DNA of 64,000 bases from Ruegeria sp. A3M17 (GTDB taxonomy: Bacteria > Pseudomonadota > Alphaproteobacteria > Rhodobacterales > Rhodobacteraceae). The position numbers and the translations under genes were made by a program. The notes beneath the pieces were generated by a model. It searched no databases. It was not told the origin of the DNA and worked only from the letters and a program-made list of their open reading frames with translations. Where the stretch lies: the NCBI RefSeq assembly GCF_003318255.1, contig NZ_QOCF01000031.1, positions 62,001 through 126,000 on the forward strand, given 5' to 3'. Positions 50,065-57,516 of this stretch are shown piece after piece. Position 1 is the stretch's first letter. Each line of letters starts with the position of its first letter.

Positions 50065-50140
<76 letters not shown>

Positions 50141-50533
50141 AAACCTAACAGTTGTACGCCAACTACAGCTCTTCCTTCTTGGCCGCCGGAATTCCCTGCG
50201 TGACCGGGTCGGAACTTAGTTCAACGTACAGAGAAGGGTGGGAATGAGCCCTTGGCGGTCACTGCAATTTCTTGCTGCGCGCAGGAAGCACGAAATACTG
50301 CCATTCGTGCATCGCGCAGCATTTCTGATTCAGCCAAGGCCCCTACCCTAGTCACAGAACCGTATCTTCACGGCAGCGACATGACCCTTTGCACCATTCG
50401 TCATGCGGATCATTTTCCCGCAACACTCTGAAATAGTTTCCTTTGATGCCTGAAGCAGCGTAACCTTAGACAAGTTTTGACGGCGCCGGTCTGCTATTGC
50501 AGACTTGTGACGCAGAAAACCGGGGGAGTGAGC
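50141..50533 (+). other. intergenic region between tRNA-Ala and FAD oxidoreductase gene
   Basis: A 393-bp region holding the nested inverted repeats at 50250-50339 and the promoter of the following gene. A GGGGGAG ribosome site precedes the next ATG. I see no coding frame with gene-like composition. Confidence 0.45.
50250..50339. repeat. nested three-tier inverted repeat, possible structured RNA or MITE-like element
   Basis: Three pairs of 7-bp arms nest perfectly: CCTTGGC/GCCAAGG (outer), CTGCGCG/CGCGCAG (middle) and GCACGAA/TTCGTGC (inner, 9-nt loop). Transcribed on either strand it would form a long interrupted hairpin. No U-tract follows, so it is not a simple terminator. Function unknown. 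Confidence 0.55.
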
Positions 50534-52321
50534 ATGCATAAGGTAACAATCGTCGGGGCCGGGATCGCCGGGCTCACCGCGGCTCTGCGTTTGTTGGAGC
50601 GGGGATACCACGTCACGCTGTATGAGCAGGACAATTTCATTGGTGGAATGTTGCGGTCCCATAAGGAGCACGACCACGGCGATTATCCGCGCGAGCACAG
50701 CTATCACATGCTGTGCAATTGGTATTACAACTTCTGGTCGGTCGCAGAAGACCTGGGGATCGAAGAGAACTTCACACCACGCGAAGCTTTCAAGTTTCTT
50801 TATGACGGTGATCTCGACAACATGCCGGAAATGGTGAACCCGGGCGGCATTCAGGATTTCTATCGCAATCTCACCGGCGGCGCGGCGCCGCCTGCTGAAC
50901 TCTTCCTGTTCATGTATTCGATGGTCGATCTGCTTTCGATCCCGGACAGTGAAGATGACAAGCTGGACCGAATGTCGTTCAACGGGTGGCTGCGTGGACG
51001 GCCCTATTGCACCGATGACGTCGCAAAACTTCACGAGAAGATCTGGCAGACCGTCTGGGCCATCGACAGTTGGCAAGCTTCAGCGCGCAGCTACAAAACC
51101 TTCCTGAAATATGGCAACCGCGTTCCAGTTCCGCAGCTTTGGCTGTTTGATGGATCCAAGAAGGACACCCTGATTGATCCTTTCCATGCCAAGCTCAAGC
51201 AGTTTGGTGACCGGTTCGAACTCAAGTACCGTCACCGACTTCGCGAAGTTCATCCCAGTGAGGATGGAACTCGGATCGAGCGGCTGGTGTTCGACAAGGT
51301 GACCAAGTCGCCATCGGTTAATCCCGATTGGAAGGTCGCAAAGAAAGACATCGTCGAAGATGTAAGCGATGAGAACGTGATCATCAGCATTACACCTGGT
51401 GGGATGGCATCGATGGTGACCGATGATTTGTACAATGCCGACCCTGCCCTGGGCCAGTTGCGATATCTGGAAGCCGAGCCGATGGCGTCGGTCGAGCTTT
51501 ATCTCAAGCGGAAACTACCCGGCATCCCTACGGAAGTGGTGGTTTTCATGGATACGCCCTATGAGATGACGTTCCTCAACTACTCGGCGACGTGGGGCCT
51601 CAAAAACACCTTCCTTTATGTGACAGTATCGGATTTCAAATCGCTGTTGTCTGTAAAACCCGAACGCCGAGACGAAAACCAGAACCTCATTCTGGATCTC
51701 AAAAACCCCAAAACCGCGATCGACTATATTCTGCGAGAAATCACTGCCAAGTTAGAGATAACCGAGGCTGATATCGATCTGTTCCAGACCTCTGTCGACA
51801 CAAATACGGGCGAAGAGCTTTTTGCCAACCTCACTGGCAGTTGGGAACACCGCCCCGAGGTCGAGACTAAGTTCCAGAACCTGTTTCTTGCCGGGACTTA
51901 CGTCAGAAATTTCGCAGATGTTTCGACCGTCGAAGGAGCTTGTGCAACAGGGCTGATCGCAGCTGAAGGCGTACGTCAGGCCGCGCAAAGAGAACCGGAC
52001 AAAGGCGATGCAGGTAAACCGGTAGAGGTGATCACACCCGATTTCTATCCCAGTCAGATGTTTCAGACGCTCAAGATCGCCTGGGCACCTTATGCCGCCA
52101 GTGCAAAAGCCTGGACGCTTGCGGACAAGGCGCTGGGGATTAATAAGCTATGGCCACCGAAAGACTTCAAGTTTCCAAAGACAAAATTCACACCGAACCC
52201 CGAGGACCTTGGTTCGCTATTTACGGATTGGCTGCCTGCAAGTAAGTGGAACGAAAAGACTTTGGGCCTGGGCCCCATGTTCTGGAACTATACAGAAGAC
52301 GGCAAGCCCCGTAAAAAGTAA
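50534..52321 (+). CDS. FAD-dependent oxidoreductase resembling phytoene desaturase / amine oxidase
   Basis: A 595-residue protein starting KVTIVGAGIAGLTAALRLLE, an FAD-binding Rossmann motif, with ERGYHVTLYEQDNFIGG next. REHSYHMLCNWYYNFWSVAE parallels the substrate-side motif of carotenoid desaturases, and LFLAGTYVRNFADVSTVEG is their C-terminal FAD motif. About 100 extra residues follow. The substrate may be an isoprenoid or polyene, suggested by a polyprenyl synthetase gene nearby. GGGGGAG site upstream of the ATG at 50534. It is followed 33 nt later by a cyclase gene. Confidence 0.72.
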   Translation: MHKVTIVGAGIAGLTAALRLLERGYHVTLYEQDNFIGGMLRSHKEHDHGDYPREHSYHMLCNWYYNFWSVAEDLGIEENFTPREAFKFLYDGDLDNMPEMVNPGGIQDFYRNLTGGAAPPAELFLFMYSMVDLLSIPDSEDDKLDRMSFNGWLRGRPYCTDDVAKLHEKIWQTVWAIDSWQASARSYKTFLKYGNRVPVPQLWLFDGSKKDTLIDPFHAKLKQFGDRFELKYRHRLREVHPSEDGTRIERLVFDKVTKSPSVNPDWKVAKKDIVEDVSDENVIISITPGGMASMVTDDLYNADPALGQLRYLEAEPMASVELYLKRKLPGIPTEVVVFMDTPYEMTFLNYSATWGLKNTFLYVTVSDFKSLLSVKPERRDENQNLILDLKNPKTAIDYILREITAKLEITEADIDLFQTSVDTNTGEELFANLTGSWEHRPEVETKFQNLFLAGTYVRNFADVSTVEGACATGLIAAEGVRQAAQREPDKGDAGKPVEVITPDFYPSQMFQTLKIAWAPYAASAKAWTLADKALGINKLWPPKDFKFPKTKFTPNPEDLGSLFTDWLPASKWNEKTLGLGPMFWNYTEDGKPRKK

Positions 52322-52354
52322 ACAAGAATACCTTGCACGAATAAGAGACGACTG

Positions 52355-55300
52355 ATGACAACTAAATCGATTGCGGCATGGCTGAACGAAATTGGCCTGC
52401 CACAATACACCGAACTGTTTGATGAGAACGGTATCGATCTGGACATCCTTGAAGATGTGACAGGTGACCATCTCAGAGAAATGGGTGTCACGGTGTTGGG
52501 TCATCGGCTGAAAATCAGCAAGGCGATCACGGCACTGAAACCGGACGCGGCACAGCCCAGACCCAGCGGAGCTATGACGGGTGAGGAAAGCGCCGAACGG
52601 CGGCACCTTACCATCATGTTTTGTGATCTGGTCGGCTCGACCGCCCTGTCTGCACGGCTTGATCCCGAAGATTATCGCGATGTTATGGCGTTGTATCAGG
52701 ATACCGTTTCGCAGTTGGTCAAAGATGCCAGGGGGCACGTGGCCCAATACCTTGGTGATGGCGTTGTGGTCTATTTTGGCTATCCGATCGCCCAAGAGGA
52801 CGCGGCTGAACGCGCATGCCGCGCGGCTTTGGAGATTGTCGAGGCCGTCGCCGGGCTGGATACTGCAGCAGGTGACCGCCTGCAGGCCCGCATCGGCATT
52901 GCAAGTGGCTTGGTTGTGGCCGGTGATCTCGACCAGATCGGAGTGAACTCAACTTCTGCCGTGGCTGGGGATACGCCAAACCTTGCCGCCCGACTACAGG
53001 GGTTGGCAAAGCCGGGGCAGATCGTAATCGGCAACAAGACGCACTCGCTGTTGGGGGATATGTTCGTCTATGAAGCGCTAGAGAACATCCATCTGAAGGG
53101 GTTTGACCCCGGTCAGGTGGCTTGGCGTGTCATATCCACGGCACAGCGTCAGGACCGGTTCACCGTCAACTCGGCACGGCGGCAGCTTACACCACTGGTC
53201 GGTCGCACGCCCGAGCGGACGCACCTGATGTCGGCCTGGGAGGATGCCAAATCAGGCAAGGGGCGTGTCTGCCTTGTCTCTGGTGAGGCCGGTATCGGCA
53301 AAAGCCGCCTAACATATGAGGTGGTGGATCAGGCCAAGGGCGAAGGCGCCACCGTCCTTCACCTGCAATCCGCGCCCTACTTCGAGAACACGGCCCTGTA
53401 TCCCATCCGCCGTCAGATCGAAACCGTGCTCGGGTTCACGGAAGACGATGACAGCGAAGCCCGGTTAGACAAGCTGGAAAAACTGGTAGTCGCCGAAGAT
53501 AATCTGAACGAAGCGCGCGCCTTAATGGCGTCGTTGTTTTCTCTGCCCTCTGACAGGTATCCACCGCTGAACCTGTCGCCCGAACTGCAAAAAACCCGCA
53601 CGATCGACATGCTAATCGAACAGGTCATCGTACAATCTAAGCGGACACCACTTCTGGTGCATTTCGAAGACCTGCACTGGATTGACCCCACATCGCTGGA
53701 TTTGCTGACCAAATTCGCCGCCAAACTCGCCGATCATCAGATCTTGTTGCTTGTGACCTGCAGGCCAGAATTCACCCATGATTGGCAGGCAGATCACCTG
53801 ATCACCTGCGAACTGGCGCGCCTCAAACCCGCAGAAGTCGAAGAGCTATTGGACAGCATGACAGGGTCGGATACGTTTTCTCCTGAACAGCGCCAGCAAC
53901 TTTTGGAACGATCGGACGGCGTGCCGCTATTTGCCGAAGAGCTGACCCGCTCTGCGATGGAATTCAGAAACAGTGCGGATCTGGTGCCTGAAACCCTGCA
54001 AGACAGTTTGATGGCGCGTCTCGACAAGCTGGGGGCCGCCCGCGAATACGCCCAAATCGGGGCTGTGATCGGCCGGGAATTCGATGTCGACCTGCTGTCT
54101 CAGGTGACCGGAACTCCGCTGCCCGAGCTCTCGGACTCGCTTTCGCAACTGGGTGACGCAGACCTTGCATACCCGGACCAAACCGGTCAAAGCCTGATGT
54201 TCCGCCACGCTTTGATTCAGGAGGCAGCGTATCGATCCATACTGCGGAGGCGGCGGCAACAATTGCATGGCAAGATTGCCGAAACACTGGAAGAAAAATT
54301 TCCCGAACGCTGCAAGTCCGGACCGGAACAAGTGGCAAACCATTTTGTTGCCGCCGGTCTGGGCGACCGGTCAGTTCCCTATTGGCTGACAGCTGGTAAA
54401 TCTGCCTGGGGTCGGGCCTCGATGAAGGAAGCACTGGCCCAGCTTAGCAACGGATTGGAATATGTCGGCGAGGTCGACGACCTGACGGATCGCGCCAAGT
54501 TGGAGCTGCAATTGCAGTCAACCATCGGCGTCGTGCACTTTGCAGCGACCAGCTATGCCTCGCCACAGGCGCAGACCGCTTTTGAGCGCTCCCGCGAGCT
54601 GTTCCTGGATGTTGACGACCCCGACTTGCGCGTTGCGGTTCTTTACGGCATCGGGGCATTTGAAACCATGCGTGGCGACGTAAGCTCGGGGCACGAGACC
54701 TTTGCGGCGCTCGCAGACGAGGCCATGCGCAGCGGCAACACCCGGTATGAAGTCTATTCCGCCTCGATGCAGGCATGGTCGCATTTCAACCGCGGCGACT
54801 ATGCCGAGTCGGTGCGTTATGGCGAACGGGTGCTGCAGCTTTATGATGAAGGCATTTGGGACCAGCCGGGGCCACGCCTGTCGGCCGCAGAACCCAAAGT
54901 GATCTCAGAATGTTTCCGGGCAGCGGCGCTTTGGTCTCTGGGCCGCCCGGATCAGGCAGTGAAGGTCGGCAATGACATCCTGAATTACACCCGGTCGCTG
55001 CCAGACCCCTATTCGCTTGTCTATGCTCTGTCGAACGGAGTGATCCGCATTCACGACTGGAACGGTGACTGGGAACAGGTCATGGACCTAACAGAAGAAT
55101 GCAGCGCGGTTGCCGGAGAATATGGCTATAGGTTCCTGGGTGTCTGGGCATCGTTCTGGCGCGCCCGGGCCATGGCAAAACTCGGTCAACTGGAAGAGGC
55201 CGAAAAGATCACGGCCACGGCGGTTGCTGCCTGTAAGAATGCCGGTGTCCATTACCACCGCGTCTGCTTTGAAGCCAATCACGCGCGCCTGCTGCTGGCG

Positions 55301-55636
55301 CAGGACCGGATCGAGGATGCCGCACGTGTTCTGGACGATCTTGACCAACCACTGCAAGTTGGCGGCGAACTGAACCACGTACTTGACCTTTGCCTGGTCA
55401 AAGGAGAACTGGCGCAGAAACGTGGCGATACCAGTGGCGCAGAGCGGCATTATCGCGCTGCATTTGACGCCGCCGAAAGCCGGTCCGCGCTGGCATGGCA
55501 AATTCGTGCGGCACTGGGTCTGGCATCTTTGCAGCCCGCGAAAGAAGCGCAACGCGCGCTTATCAAACCGCTGGTGGCGCAGTTCGAAGAAGGGTTCGAC
55601 AGCCAGTATCTGAAAGCAGCACGCGCCTATTTGTGA
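52355..55636 (+). CDS. SAM - class III cyclase - AAA-type ATPase - TPR multidomain protein
   Basis: A 1093-residue soluble protein. Residues 1-62 form a SAM domain (IAAWLNEIGLPQYTELFDEN). A class III cyclase domain follows (metal Asp residues in TIMFCDLVGST and QYLGDGVVVYFG), with AVAGDTPNLAARLQGLA. From about 275 a STAND/AAA module has P-loop SGEAGIGKSRLTYE and Walker B HFEDLHWID; TPR-like helical repeats fill the C-terminal 450 residues. The layout recalls mammalian soluble adenylyl cyclase. It probably makes cAMP in response to a partner sensed by the repeats. Its stop directly abuts the convergent polyprenyl synthetase stop. Confidence 0.85.
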   Translation: MTTKSIAAWLNEIGLPQYTELFDENGIDLDILEDVTGDHLREMGVTVLGHRLKISKAITALKPDAAQPRPSGAMTGEESAERRHLTIMFCDLVGSTALSARLDPEDYRDVMALYQDTVSQLVKDARGHVAQYLGDGVVVYFGYPIAQEDAAERACRAALEIVEAVAGLDTAAGDRLQARIGIASGLVVAGDLDQIGVNSTSAVAGDTPNLAARLQGLAKPGQIVIGNKTHSLLGDMFVYEALENIHLKGFDPGQVAWRVISTAQRQDRFTVNSARRQLTPLVGRTPERTHLMSAWEDAKSGKGRVCLVSGEAGIGKSRLTYEVVDQAKGEGATVLHLQSAPYFENTALYPIRRQIETVLGFTEDDDSEARLDKLEKLVVAEDNLNEARALMASLFSLPSDRYPPLNLSPELQKTRTIDMLIEQVIVQSKRTPLLVHFEDLHWIDPTSLDLLTKFAAKLADHQILLLVTCRPEFTHDWQADHLITCELARLKPAEVEELLDSMTGSDTFSPEQRQQLLERSDGVPLFAEELTRSAMEFRNSADLVPETLQDSLMARLDKLGAAREYAQIGAVIGREFDVDLLSQVTGTPLPELSDSLSQLGDADLAYPDQTGQSLMFRHALIQEAAYRSILRRRRQQLHGKIAETLEEKFPERCKSGPEQVANHFVAAGLGDRSVPYWLTAGKSAWGRASMKEALAQLSNGLEYVGEVDDLTDRAKLELQLQSTIGVVHFAATSYASPQAQTAFERSRELFLDVDDPDLRVAVLYGIGAFETMRGDVSSGHETFAALADEAMRSGNTRYEVYSASMQAWSHFNRGDYAESVRYGERVLQLYDEGIWDQPGPRLSAAEPKVISECFRAAALWSLGRPDQAVKVGNDILNYTRSLPDPYSLVYALSNGVIRIHDWNGDWEQVMDLTEECSAVAGEYGYRFLGVWASFWRARAMAKLGQLEEAEKITATAVAACKNAGVHYHRVCFEANHARLLLAQDRIEDAARVLDDLDQPLQVGGELNHVLDLCLVKGELAQKRGDTSGAERHYRAAFDAAESRSALAWQIRAALGLASLQPAKEAQRALIKPLVAQFEEGFDSQYLKAARAYL

Positions 55637-56572
55637 TCAGCGGGCTTCGCCCAAAGCGCGTGTGCGATCCACAAGTGTGATCAGCTTTTTGGGGTTCCGG
55701 GCAAATCGTTTGGCCTCGGCTATTGCGCAGGCGGCGATCCGGTCCAGTTCGGCCTCGGCTTCTGGCAAAGCGGCGCGAAAGGCCTCGGCCAGCGCGTCGT
55801 AATTGCCCGGGTTCGGATCGCGGAACATCTCGGCAATTGCAGGCTCGCGTACAGCTATCGCGGCCGGCAGGGTTAGAATCCCGTCGCGGATATCCTCTTC
55901 ACCCCCACCACCCAGGGCTTCGGTTCCACGCACGTCGGACACGTCATCGCAGGCGTGATACAGGGTGCCCAGAAGTCCCCCGAAATGACGTAACCCCTCG
56001 CTGCGGTCGCCGAGACAAGCAGCCACCTCAAACATCGAACCGGTATCTTCCTGCGCCAGCTTGCGCCAATCCTCGACCCCGCGCGGCATCGTGCGGCTGT
56101 TCCACTGCGCGATCTCGGCCGCGCCAAGCCGGGACATCAACTCGGACAACAACTCGACCACCTGCGGCTCGGTCGCCATCATCCGATAGCCTTCCGCAAC
56201 CATGAACCCAGACGTCATCAGCGCCGCAAGTTGTCCAAAAGCCGTGTGCATGGTCGGTTTGCCGCGCCGTTCGTCCGACTGGTCCAGAATGTCGTCCACA
56301 ACCAGCGTCATGTTATGAAACAGCTCAAGCGTTACGGCCGCCTGGATGGTTTCATCCGTGATCTCTTCGCTGCCGACGGCCGTCTGGCAAGCAAATAAGG
56401 TCAACGGGCGGAAATACTTTGAGCCGGCCAGAAACTGCTCTTCTAACTGTGGTCGCATCTCCTCGGATGTGGATTCAACCCACGCGCCAATGGCTGTACG
56501 CAACCGTTCCGTCTCAGACTCAAATCCCAGTTCCGGTATCACCCAATCGGCGCGGGCACCTTCGTTATTCAT
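55637..56572 (-). CDS. trans-polyprenyl diphosphate synthase family protein
   Basis: A 311-residue isoprenyl synthase. The first Asp-rich motif is LVVDDILDQSDERRGKPTMH and the second CDDVSD; the usual GGKRLRP is GSKYFRP, so substrate binding at the C5 site may differ. It should join C5 units or bind a prenyl diphosphate in the cytoplasm. It overlaps the preceding gene (ATGA), hence one operon with it. Chain length cannot be predicted. Confidence 0.85.
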   Translation of the reverse strand: MNNEGARADWVIPELGFESETERLRTAIGAWVESTSEEMRPQLEEQFLAGSKYFRPLTLFACQTAVGSEEITDETIQAAVTLELFHNMTLVVDDILDQSDERRGKPTMHTAFGQLAALMTSGFMVAEGYRMMATEPQVVELLSELMSRLGAAEIAQWNSRTMPRGVEDWRKLAQEDTGSMFEVAACLGDRSEGLRHFGGLLGTLYHACDDVSDVRGTEALGGGGEEDIRDGILTLPAAIAVREPAIAEMFRDPNPGNYDALAEAFRAALPEAEAELDRIAACAIAEAKRFARNPKKLITLVDRTRALGEAR

Positions 56573-57045
56573 GGTTTGGATTTTGCATAGCGATGGGGGC
56601 CTTCCCGGTCATCACCCACGGGGCCGACTGACTTGCGAAGCTCAGCCTCGATTTCCATAAGATCACGTTGCAACAGTTTTGCCTCGCTCAGCGACAGATC
56701 CGATATCTCGCGTAACACGGCACGGGCCTTGTCCAGCACGATCAGCTGTCTGGCCTCCAAAGACGGGCCATCCGCACTGGGTATGGTTGCTTCGATCGCG
56801 TCCGTCCCTTGGGTCGAGACGATGGTCGCAATCTGCTGCCAGTACCGCAAAGCCGAGCTGAGCCACCGGGCTTGTGCCTGCGCAAGCAGAAACATCACGT
56901 CGGGTTCTACCCGTGCACCCTTTTCGCTGTAGTCCCGCAACGAGCCTAGAACACCCTCAAGCGCCTCCAGATACATCGCCACCATATCGTCAATCGAGCC
57001 GGGGTTCCCAAACTCATTGTGTGATGATCCGTCGTCTTGATCCAT
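56569..57045 (-). CDS. helical protein of unknown function upstream of polyprenyl synthase
   Basis: A 158-residue acidic protein with long amphipathic helices, including MFLLAQAQARWLSSALRYWQ and LSLSEAKLLQRDLMEIEAEL. There is no signal peptide or membrane segment. The helical repeats resemble granule-surface or adaptor proteins, but I cannot name a family. It is translationally coupled to the polyprenyl synthetase gene. A CtrA-type box lies 154 bp upstream. Confidence 0.65.
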   Translation of the reverse strand: MDQDDGSSHNEFGNPGSIDDMVAMYLEALEGVLGSLRDYSEKGARVEPDVMFLLAQAQARWLSSALRYWQQIATIVSTQGTDAIEATIPSADGPSLEARQLIVLDKARAVLREISDLSLSEAKLLQRDLMEIEAELRKSVGPVGDDREGPHRYAKSKP

Positions 57046-57516
57046 CTTGCTACTCCATTGCCCGCATCGTCATAAAGTTCTGTAGATTCAGAGTTTTGGT
57101 ACCGATTGTCACTGTATATTCACACCGCGTTTGGGCATGGGTTGATTTGATTTTCAGTAAAACAAGAAGATCGCCGCGCAATCAAGTACCGAGATATGTT
57201 AACCATCTATTAACCTTTGGGATCTGCCGTCGGTATAAGAAAAAAGCACCCGCCCCGAGGGTTTTGGGTCACATGGCGCAGACGGCGATACGAAACAGAT
57301 TTGCCGCGATCTACTGGGTTGAAGTTCGGACCATGAGGCTTTGCGACAACTGCGTCACGCAATGTATCTGGGTTTCGGTGAGGCACTGGCGGTGGTCACC
57401 AGATAAAATGGCCCAGCAAAGAAAACAATCGCCGCATGAGATCGGCCGAAGGTTCGATTGGGAACTTGGACGGATAAAATGCCCGCTATTAGGGCTTATT
57501 CAGGCACCGCTTGCCA
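57046..57516. other. long intergenic region with CtrA-type box
   Basis: 471 bp without a credible gene. It contains the CtrA-like box at 57199-57213, two copies of GATAAAATG about 70 bp apart (57402 and 57473) and short GC hairpins near 57481-57495 that may end the amidohydrolase transcript. The distal half could encode a small RNA or hold an unmarked promoter. Confidence 0.45.
57199..57213. promoter_or_regulatory. CtrA-type binding box
   Basis: TTAACCATCTATTAA is an exact TTAA-N7-TTAA full-length CtrA box, here with the commonly seen TTAACCAT left half. It lies 154 bp before the start of the helical-protein/polyprenyl synthetase operon on the minus strand. CtrA control is inferred from the motif. 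Confidence 0.6.

Follow-up and report, generated by a model that had tools for sequence, protein, structure and literature searches.

Within a window of 64,000 nucleotides (nt) from Ruegeria sp. A3M17 (the whole stretch analyzed, G000:C40:62001-126000), four neighboring genes form a rare yet strongly conserved unit, hereafter the island. It encodes a FAD enzyme, a protein that joins a sterile alpha motif (SAM) to a nucleotide cyclase, an ATPase domain and tetratricopeptide repeats (TPR), a protein of the trans-prenyl-synthase fold, and a small predicted helical protein (Table 1). The families are known, their combination is undescribed, and the synthase is altered. We tentatively read the island, with somewhat less than even confidence, as one functional, horizontally mobile isoprenoid cassette that would unite a two-component prenyl enzyme, a FAD-dependent oxidation and a cyclase switch.

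A sequence-only reading of the window had reported the four genes, their domains, a 33-nt spacing, an ATGA overlap and abutting stop codons, all of which we recovered at the same positions. The FAD and cyclase genes are separated by 33 nt, the cyclase and synthase genes end with 0 nt between their stop codons, and the helical-protein and synthase genes overlap by 4 nt. The description of the locus as two convergent pairs holds for the touching stops but not for the pairs, each of which is co-directional; strictly, two co-directional pairs face one another. Scans for promoters (4 found vs. 3.3 expected) and terminators (9 found vs. 8.3 expected) gave results near chance. Neither the four-gene combination nor the Ruegeria encapsulin operon discussed below is described among the open-access literature matches listed, in keeping with the earlier impression that no described system has this combination.

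A rare unit, conserved within and beyond Ruegeria

Among 54 Ruegeria genomes, counting that of the window, five carry a full-length FAD gene, and the same five contain a synthase match at E<=1e-20 and a full-length cyclase at 95–100% identity. Across 101 relatives, the helical protein was found in those five Ruegeria carriers alone. The junctions are alike in all five copies (33 or 34 nt, 0 nt, and 4 nt), and a scan of contigs, which reaches close relatives alone, returned four Ruegeria loci, from three Ruegeria atlantica strains and Ruegeria sp. Alg231-54. Purifying selection acts on each of the four genes. In the 10 pairwise comparisons among the five Ruegeria copies, the ratio of nonsynonymous to synonymous substitution rates (dN/dS) is 0.030–0.075 for the FAD gene, 0.035–0.063 for the cyclase gene, 0.029–0.078 for the helical-protein gene, and lowest, 0.015–0.039, for the synthase gene.

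Beyond the genus, the island is found in few genomes. A search with the FAD protein in 394 genomes of the family, in which at most three preliminary candidates per genome were scored, recovered relatives in G198, where the match is nearly complete, and in G350. G374 and G225 each gave a weak N-terminal match and were dropped; no match to the reference synthase or cyclase lies in their 19-kb neighborhoods. The same procedure in 398 phylum genomes at E<=1e-10 found none other than the window genome, nor did a synthase search in 385 class genomes at E<=1e-40 with at most five preliminary candidates per genome scored. G198 has all four genes in the same layout, with identities of 37% (helical protein), 69% (synthase), 41% (cyclase) and about 47–52% (FAD enzyme); its helical-protein and synthase genes share the ATGA overlap, and this pair is convergent to the cyclase and FAD genes, with stops 10 nt apart. 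A second member of its genus, G1172, likewise has the complete set (40%, 70%, 40% and 49%, in the same order), and these two are the only genomes with the synthase among five of that genus. In G350, from a third genus, the island is rearranged: helical-protein, synthase, cyclase and CRP-like genes lie in succession on one strand and the FAD gene is divergent from them; identities are 58% for the synthase, 33% over 771 amino acids (aa) for the cyclase, and 28–34% for the FAD enzyme (34 and 32% in two pieces).

Since the layout recurs at 35–70% identity in another genus, and since dN/dS is low, the linkage of the four genes goes beyond chance. The comparison of gene neighborhoods that the sequence-only reading had proposed thus bears out its grouping, in that the partner genes adjoin the full-length type of FAD gene in 5/5 Ruegeria carriers, G198, G1172 and G350, although the unit is rare. 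One further Ruegeria genome, G043, contains a cyclase orthologue with 86% identity (L078, 12638-16082) and, near the contig end, a FAD remnant comprising the last 40 residues, perhaps a decayed island.

The segment shared by the Ruegeria carriers also varies in its setting. It lies beside a tRNA-Ala gene in the window and at L032 and L034, but is inverted relative to that tRNA at L034 (8864-16114, compared with window 50065-57233), and at L031 and L033 it has another left flank, with no tRNA within the 19.8 kb examined. Orientation and flank differ for the whole segment at once, and it therefore behaves as one block. No repeat joining the two block ends was found when transposon and att repeats were looked for. 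Regarding a phage origin, the G198 FAD protein has no match in 50,697 phage records, and the synthase and helical protein have no PHROG match.

Table 1. Features of the island and its surroundings in the window
Feature	Position	Strand	Length and basis
FAD enzyme of the zeta-carotene desaturase (ZDS)/HpnE/phytoene desaturase kind, with a C-terminal extension past the FAD-binding end	50534-52321	+	595 aa; open reading frame, Pfam, NCBIfam, orthologue alignment
SAM–class III cyclase–AAA_16–TPR protein	52355-55636	+	1093 aa; open reading frame, Pfam, NCBIfam, tree
SAM domain, aa 2-62	52358-52540	+	Pfam
Class III cyclase domain, aa 82-249	52598-53101	+	Pfam, alignment
AAA_16 ATPase domain, aa 280-464	53192-53746	+	Pfam
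TPR region, aa 738-1047	54566-55495	+	Pfam; TPR_MalT slightly under cut-off
Trans-prenyl-synthase-fold protein with altered active-site residues	55637-56572	-	311 aa; open reading frame, Pfam, alignment
First Asp-rich motif DDILD, aa 93-97, intact	56282-56296	-	Alignment
Asp176 at the Lys site of the KTG/KTA motif (Lys in 15/15 paralogues compared)	56045-56047	-	Alignment
Predicted helical protein without a recognized family; its gene precedes the synthase gene and is coupled to it	56569-57045	-	158 aa; open reading frame, null Pfam result, structure model
ATGA overlap (4 nt) of helical-protein and synthase genes	56569-56572	-	Reading frames
Abutting stop codons of cyclase (+) and synthase (-)	55634-55639	both	Reading frames
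Segment common to five Ruegeria carriers, ends approximate	50397-57233		Comparison of carriers
tRNA-Ala (GGC), adjoining the block in 3/5 carriers	50065-50140	+	Rfam; sole Rfam match

The four proteins of the island

The window synthase matches the polyprenyl_synt family (PF00348) at 120.3 bits against a cut-off of 27. Besides the island copy (120.7 bits), its genome encodes two other members of this family (262.6 and 171.6 bits); G050, G1172 and G350 have the same number and G198 one more. In an alignment of the four island synthases with 15 paralogues, the island proteins keep both Asp-rich motifs (DDILD and DDVSD), the Lys and Arg of GSKYFRP, and the His of TMH. All four, however, have lost residues that the paralogues retain: the Lys of KTG (15/15 others) is replaced by Asp (DTG), the Lys of GK (15/15) by Gly (GG), FQ (15/15) by YH, and GD (14/15) by SG. 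The lysines of KTG and GK and the glutamine of FQ hold the allylic diphosphate; in the G350 protein, a Lys stands three residues past the lost GK. In a tree, the four island synthases form a clade (100/100) on a long branch, apart from the 15 paralogues. That the protein is so strongly constrained despite these losses suggests either a changed chemistry or reliance on a partner.

A candidate for this partner is the helical protein, whose gene overlaps that of the synthase through the ATGA junction in Ruegeria, G198 and G1172, and also in G350 provided that translation begins at the earlier of two ATG codons. The family spans Ruegeria, G198, G1172 and G350 with 25–40% identity between genera; the G350 member (25%) was missed by tblastn with the window protein and found through reading frames and alignment. 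Nothing meaningful was found for the family in Pfam, NCBIfam, PHROGs, PADLOC or the PDB. Its helical character comes from the structure model alone, which has five helices and a mean predicted local distance difference test (pLDDT) score of 55.4. A Foldseek search with this model gave 0 matches at E<=0.001 and 451 at E<=10, an outcome that is uninformative because the model is weak. Judged by its position, its likeliest role is that of HexA in the HexA/HexB pair, namely, the smaller component of a two-component prenyl synthase whose large partner bears both Asp-rich motifs (PMC7839719). The island resembles HexA/HexB and HepS/HepT in having a large protein with both motifs and a small protein encoded alongside, and the NCBIfam matches of the window synthase include HepT and hexaprenyl large-subunit models. 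It differs from them in that no homology of the small protein to HexA or HepS was detected, and the large one is without the conserved lysines and FQ.

From its sequence, we read the FAD enzyme as a new branch of its superfamily, on the side of the isoprenoid desaturases and dehydroxylases. Its Pfam matches are Amino_oxidase (61.5 bits), which is a broad model, and NAD_binding_8. The leading NCBIfam models for the window protein are zeta-carotene desaturase (86 bits, cut-off 622) and then HpnE (78.8 bits, cut-off 283), with phytoene desaturase at 41.7 bits against a cut-off of 569. HpnE is the top model for 5/5 other FAD proteins, namely, those of G198, G1172, G350, the AD91A encapsulin operon and Haloterrigena; the G198, G1172 and G350 orthologues score 84–92 bits, under the cut-off of 283. 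When a profile of the island FAD proteins was compared with the PDB, phytoene desaturase came first (52.6 bits) and carotene desaturase second, mostly over the N-terminal FAD-binding stretch, and amino-acid oxidases reached 37 bits in the N-terminal part alone. The sole amine or amino-acid oxidase within the best 25 of 109 NCBIfam matches is ThiO, in last place at 24 bits. Grouping with amine oxidases unrelated to isoprenoids, the outcome that the sequence-only reading had named as fatal to its proposal, is therefore not borne out by these comparisons. The likeness to the HpnE, zeta-carotene and phytoene desaturases lies in the FAD-binding N-terminal stretch and the C-terminal end. The window protein is set apart from them by scores well under the equivalog cut-offs and by its C-terminal extension, and its genome by the partial SQS_PSY match considered below.

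The remaining protein combines SAM_1/SAM_2, Guanylate_cyc, AAA_16 and TPR domains in Pfam; TPR_4 is above its cut-off, and TPR_MalT (41.6 vs. 45 bits) and TPR_2 (25.9 vs. 27) are under theirs. Class III cyclases depend on metal-binding Asp and catalytic Asn and Arg residues, and a Lys/Asp pair selects ATP. The metal and catalytic motifs FCD, GDG and PNLAAR are present in an alignment to solved cyclases. The ATP-selecting Lys/Asp pair of adenylate cyclases, however, corresponds to Gln/Ala in an alignment to solved guanylyl cyclases, and both of the usual substrate-selecting pairs are lacking. Because the nucleotide-selecting pair is Gln/Ala, the product of the cyclase cannot be named. The earlier proposal that cyclic AMP signaling is tied to the isoprenoid genes is thus unsupported as regards cyclic AMP, and a gene for a protein that binds cyclic nucleotide monophosphates (cNMP) was seen beside the cyclase in G350 alone, where a CRP-like gene (cNMP_binding and HTH_Crp_2; L094:3730-4443) stands directly behind the cyclase gene; the flanks of the other islands were not domain-searched. 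Control of the island by some cyclic nucleotide is plausible. The cyclase–ATPase–TPR part aligns with the TOMM system kinase/cyclase fusion model (TIGR03903) over aa 63-1056 at 486.3 bits, but this score is under the cut-off of 705.75, the match leaves out profile positions 1-269 of 1267, and the N-terminus of the island protein is instead a SAM domain.

The kinship of the cyclases was assessed in a tree of 41 sequences consisting of the best match per locus of 30 Ruegeria loci, eight of nine encapsulin-associated cyclases (THAF33 omitted) and the island cyclases, from which the rows for L045 and L078 were dropped as repeats of others. Eight island cyclases, from Ruegeria (G043 included), G198 and G1172, form one clade (100/100). 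The G350 cyclase sits on a very long branch, and its placement is unsure.

An encapsulin-associated counterpart in the same genus

Nine of the 54 Ruegeria genomes, none with the island, carry an operon in the order cyclase, family 1 shell, DUF3237, FAD enzyme, polyprenyl synthase and small protein (L076:5858-14488 on NZ_CP031947.1, L075, and L079-L085, including plasmids of THAF33 and AD91A). The last, small-protein gene is on the same strand in G036 and on the opposite strand in the other carriers. The AD91A shell scores 105.7 bits with the NCBIfam family 1 model (cut-off 100), and PF04454 is above its cut-off in all nine genomes. In each of the nine FAD proteins, a variable linker leads to a C-terminal VIITQK(G/S), an ending that looks like a cargo targeting tag and that the window, G198, G1172 and G350 FAD proteins do not have.

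As judged from sequence comparison, island and operon contain the same three enzyme classes, clustered in both but drawn from different subfamilies. A cyclase that shares the island architecture but is only distantly related leads the operon, and identities between window and operon over the aligned parts are 32% for the cyclase, 23% for the FAD enzyme, and 41% for the synthase over 82 aa only (range 22.6–41.5%). The island lacks DUF3237 and the FAD tag, and no PF04454 shell was found in the window genome or the four other Ruegeria carriers, a search that did not extend to family 2 models or to G198, G1172 and G350. The helical protein has no counterpart in the encapsulin operon compared, and the AD91A synthase keeps the usual Lys residues. 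On the kinship of the naked and shelled versions, the cyclase tree has a deep fork (91/88) with long branches and does not resolve the matter; together with FAD enzymes and synthases that are only 23–28% alike, it leaves both an old common module and independent assembly possible. Mutual exclusion of the two versions was considered and rejected for want of evidence, since carriage by 5 and 9 of 54 genomes with 0 overlap would arise by chance with a probability of about 0.39 by hand calculation. In-frame TGA codons were reported in matches to encapsulin-operon cyclases at G044:C2:425911-429111 (two) and G045:C28:142423-145584 (one); at L076 and L082, full-length open frames exist despite reported TGAs, and the match probably ran beyond the stop.

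A further shelled parallel is offered by the family 2B encapsulins, in which a polyprenyl transferase cargo accompanies a cNMP-binding shell (PMC8346489); the words FAD, desaturase and adenylate are absent from its main text, to which this statement is confined. The island shares with them the prenyl synthase and the cyclic-nucleotide theme, and the family 2B cargo model is the top NCBIfam hit for the window synthase, but at 96 bits against a cut-off of 450, and the island is without a shell gene.

Relatives of the shelled-version FAD enzyme, 38.6–42.5% identical, occur in Streptomyces plasmids at L126, L129, L130 and L131. In 4/4 of these, each with a match over 80% of the query, the FAD gene is convergent and overlapping with a polyprenyl synthetase gene; the count excludes four further Streptomyces records in which the match is partial. 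An oxygenase gene lies nearby, annotated MpaB in three plasmids and DUF2236 in the fourth, as does LtrA, and 3/3 Streptomyces oxygenases tested match MPAB_Lcp_cat. The pairing of FAD enzyme and synthase is thus recurrent, though not universal, and favors a function of the FAD enzyme in isoprenoid metabolism.

Explanations and their weight

Under the cassette reading, the helical and synthase-fold proteins would form a two-component prenyl enzyme, in which the large partner bears both Asp-rich motifs and the small partner may set chain length or acceptor. The FAD enzyme would next oxidize the prenyl product, by the desaturation or dehydroxylation known from the families nearest to it. The SAM–cyclase–AAA–TPR protein might sense a signal, or assemble via its SAM domain, and its cyclic nucleotide would switch the pathway. 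Several observations weigh against this reading. Because the synthase has lost two lysines, GD and FQ, normal chain elongation is doubtful; the earlier claim that the FAD enzyme acts on an isoprenoid supplied by the synthase therefore survives in its first half, oxidation of an isoprenoid being likely, and is weakened in its second, supply by an ordinary synthase. Kinship of the helical protein to HexA or HepS was not found in the PDB at E<=10 (three matches, none of them these) or in Pfam at E<=10. The AlphaFold model of the FAD protein, for which five near-identical sequences were allowed, has a pLDDT of 31.6 and was not used for a fold search. Three annotated haloarchaeal plasmids encode FAD relatives without an adjoining prenyl synthase, and an unannotated Nocardia plasmid stretch has a FAD relative with no synthase match nearby. 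No cNMP-receptor gene is present within the island of Ruegeria, G198 or G1172, where the flanks were not domain-searched. The large family of cyclase paralogues, with a match at E<=1e-100 in 48/54 Ruegeria genomes, implies that the presence of a cyclase may be incidental, and G043 has no synthase match genome-wide at E<=1e-20.

The altered residues lend themselves to another explanation, which we consider unlikely though far from negligible, namely, that the synthase-fold protein no longer elongates and would be either a prenyl transferase to an unusual acceptor or a non-catalytic prenyl binder, with the FAD substrate made elsewhere. MoeN5 is such a synthase-fold enzyme using another acceptor (PMC7839719). 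All four replacements recur in every island synthase compared, and since constraint is strongest on this gene among the four, they do not represent decay; the window genome also has two other prenyl synthase genes. The same protein nevertheless keeps both Asp-rich motifs and the GSKYFRP and TMH residues, in G350 a Lys lies close to the lost one, and no acceptor-making gene is present within the island. An ordinary carotenoid or hopanoid step, in which the FAD enzyme would be a phytoene or zeta-carotene desaturase or HpnE acting on the C30/C40 product of a squalene/phytoene synthase, is improbable. The family resemblance fits it, as does an SQS_PSY match in the window genome that is above the Pfam cut-off (87.1 vs. 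26 bits), but the desaturase and HpnE scores fall far under their cut-offs, and this match is single and partial (positions 2-172 of 263). A partial match is present in 18/18 genomes searched, with or without the island, and matches near the whole model (214–216 bits) occur in G042 and G198 alone. HpnE requires HpnC and HpnD. Given the single, partial match, the FAD enzyme probably acts on something other than a C30/C40 head-to-head product, and a carotenoid substrate, which the sequence-only reading had entertained, is unlikely.

Two further explanations concern the cyclase. It may be functionally unlinked, a passenger or general regulator of a mobile block whose pathway would consist of the FAD enzyme, synthase and helical protein; this we regard as rather unlikely. 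The many paralogues in the genus, the G043 genome, which keeps the cyclase without a synthase and nearly without the FAD gene, and the missing receptor gene within the Ruegeria island all agree with it. Against it, the island cyclases form their own clade, are kept with the partner genes in two genera and evolve under purifying selection, and a distant cyclase of similar architecture heads the encapsulin operon. A defense-like signaling module of ATPase and cyclase on a mobile block, with the enzymes as accessories, is very improbable. It would account for the weak PycC matches of the cyclase domain in PADLOC (best 52.4 bits) and for a block that lies by a tRNA gene in 3/5 carriers with varying orientation and flank. 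Yet PADLOC gave no Pycsar effector match among the four island proteins (genes beyond the island were not scanned), the only further PADLOC hits, at 36 and 18 bits, are weak and fall on the FAD-binding N-terminus of the FAD enzyme, and the metabolic genes are co-conserved and constrained.

The cassette reading can be extended to a broader proposal, possible although we lean against it: that Rhodobacterales harbor signal-controlled isoprenoid modules of an undescribed class, each composed of an HpnE-like FAD enzyme, a prenyl-synthase-fold enzyme and a SAM–cyclase–ATPase–TPR protein. These would exist in a naked form, represented by the island with its re-purposed synthase and a new small subunit, and in an encapsulated form that has a family 1 shell and the FAD enzyme as cargo, and the naked synthase would perform a non-elongation reaction. 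At either breadth, an uncharacterized flavoenzyme, an altered prenyl synthase and a nucleotide cyclase are joined in one heritable unit, with a shelled parallel in the same genus. The occurrence of naked and shelled versions in related marine Ruegeria would allow a test of what an encapsulin shell contributes to such a pathway, and bacterial isoprenoid chemistry would gain a new branch if the product were identified.

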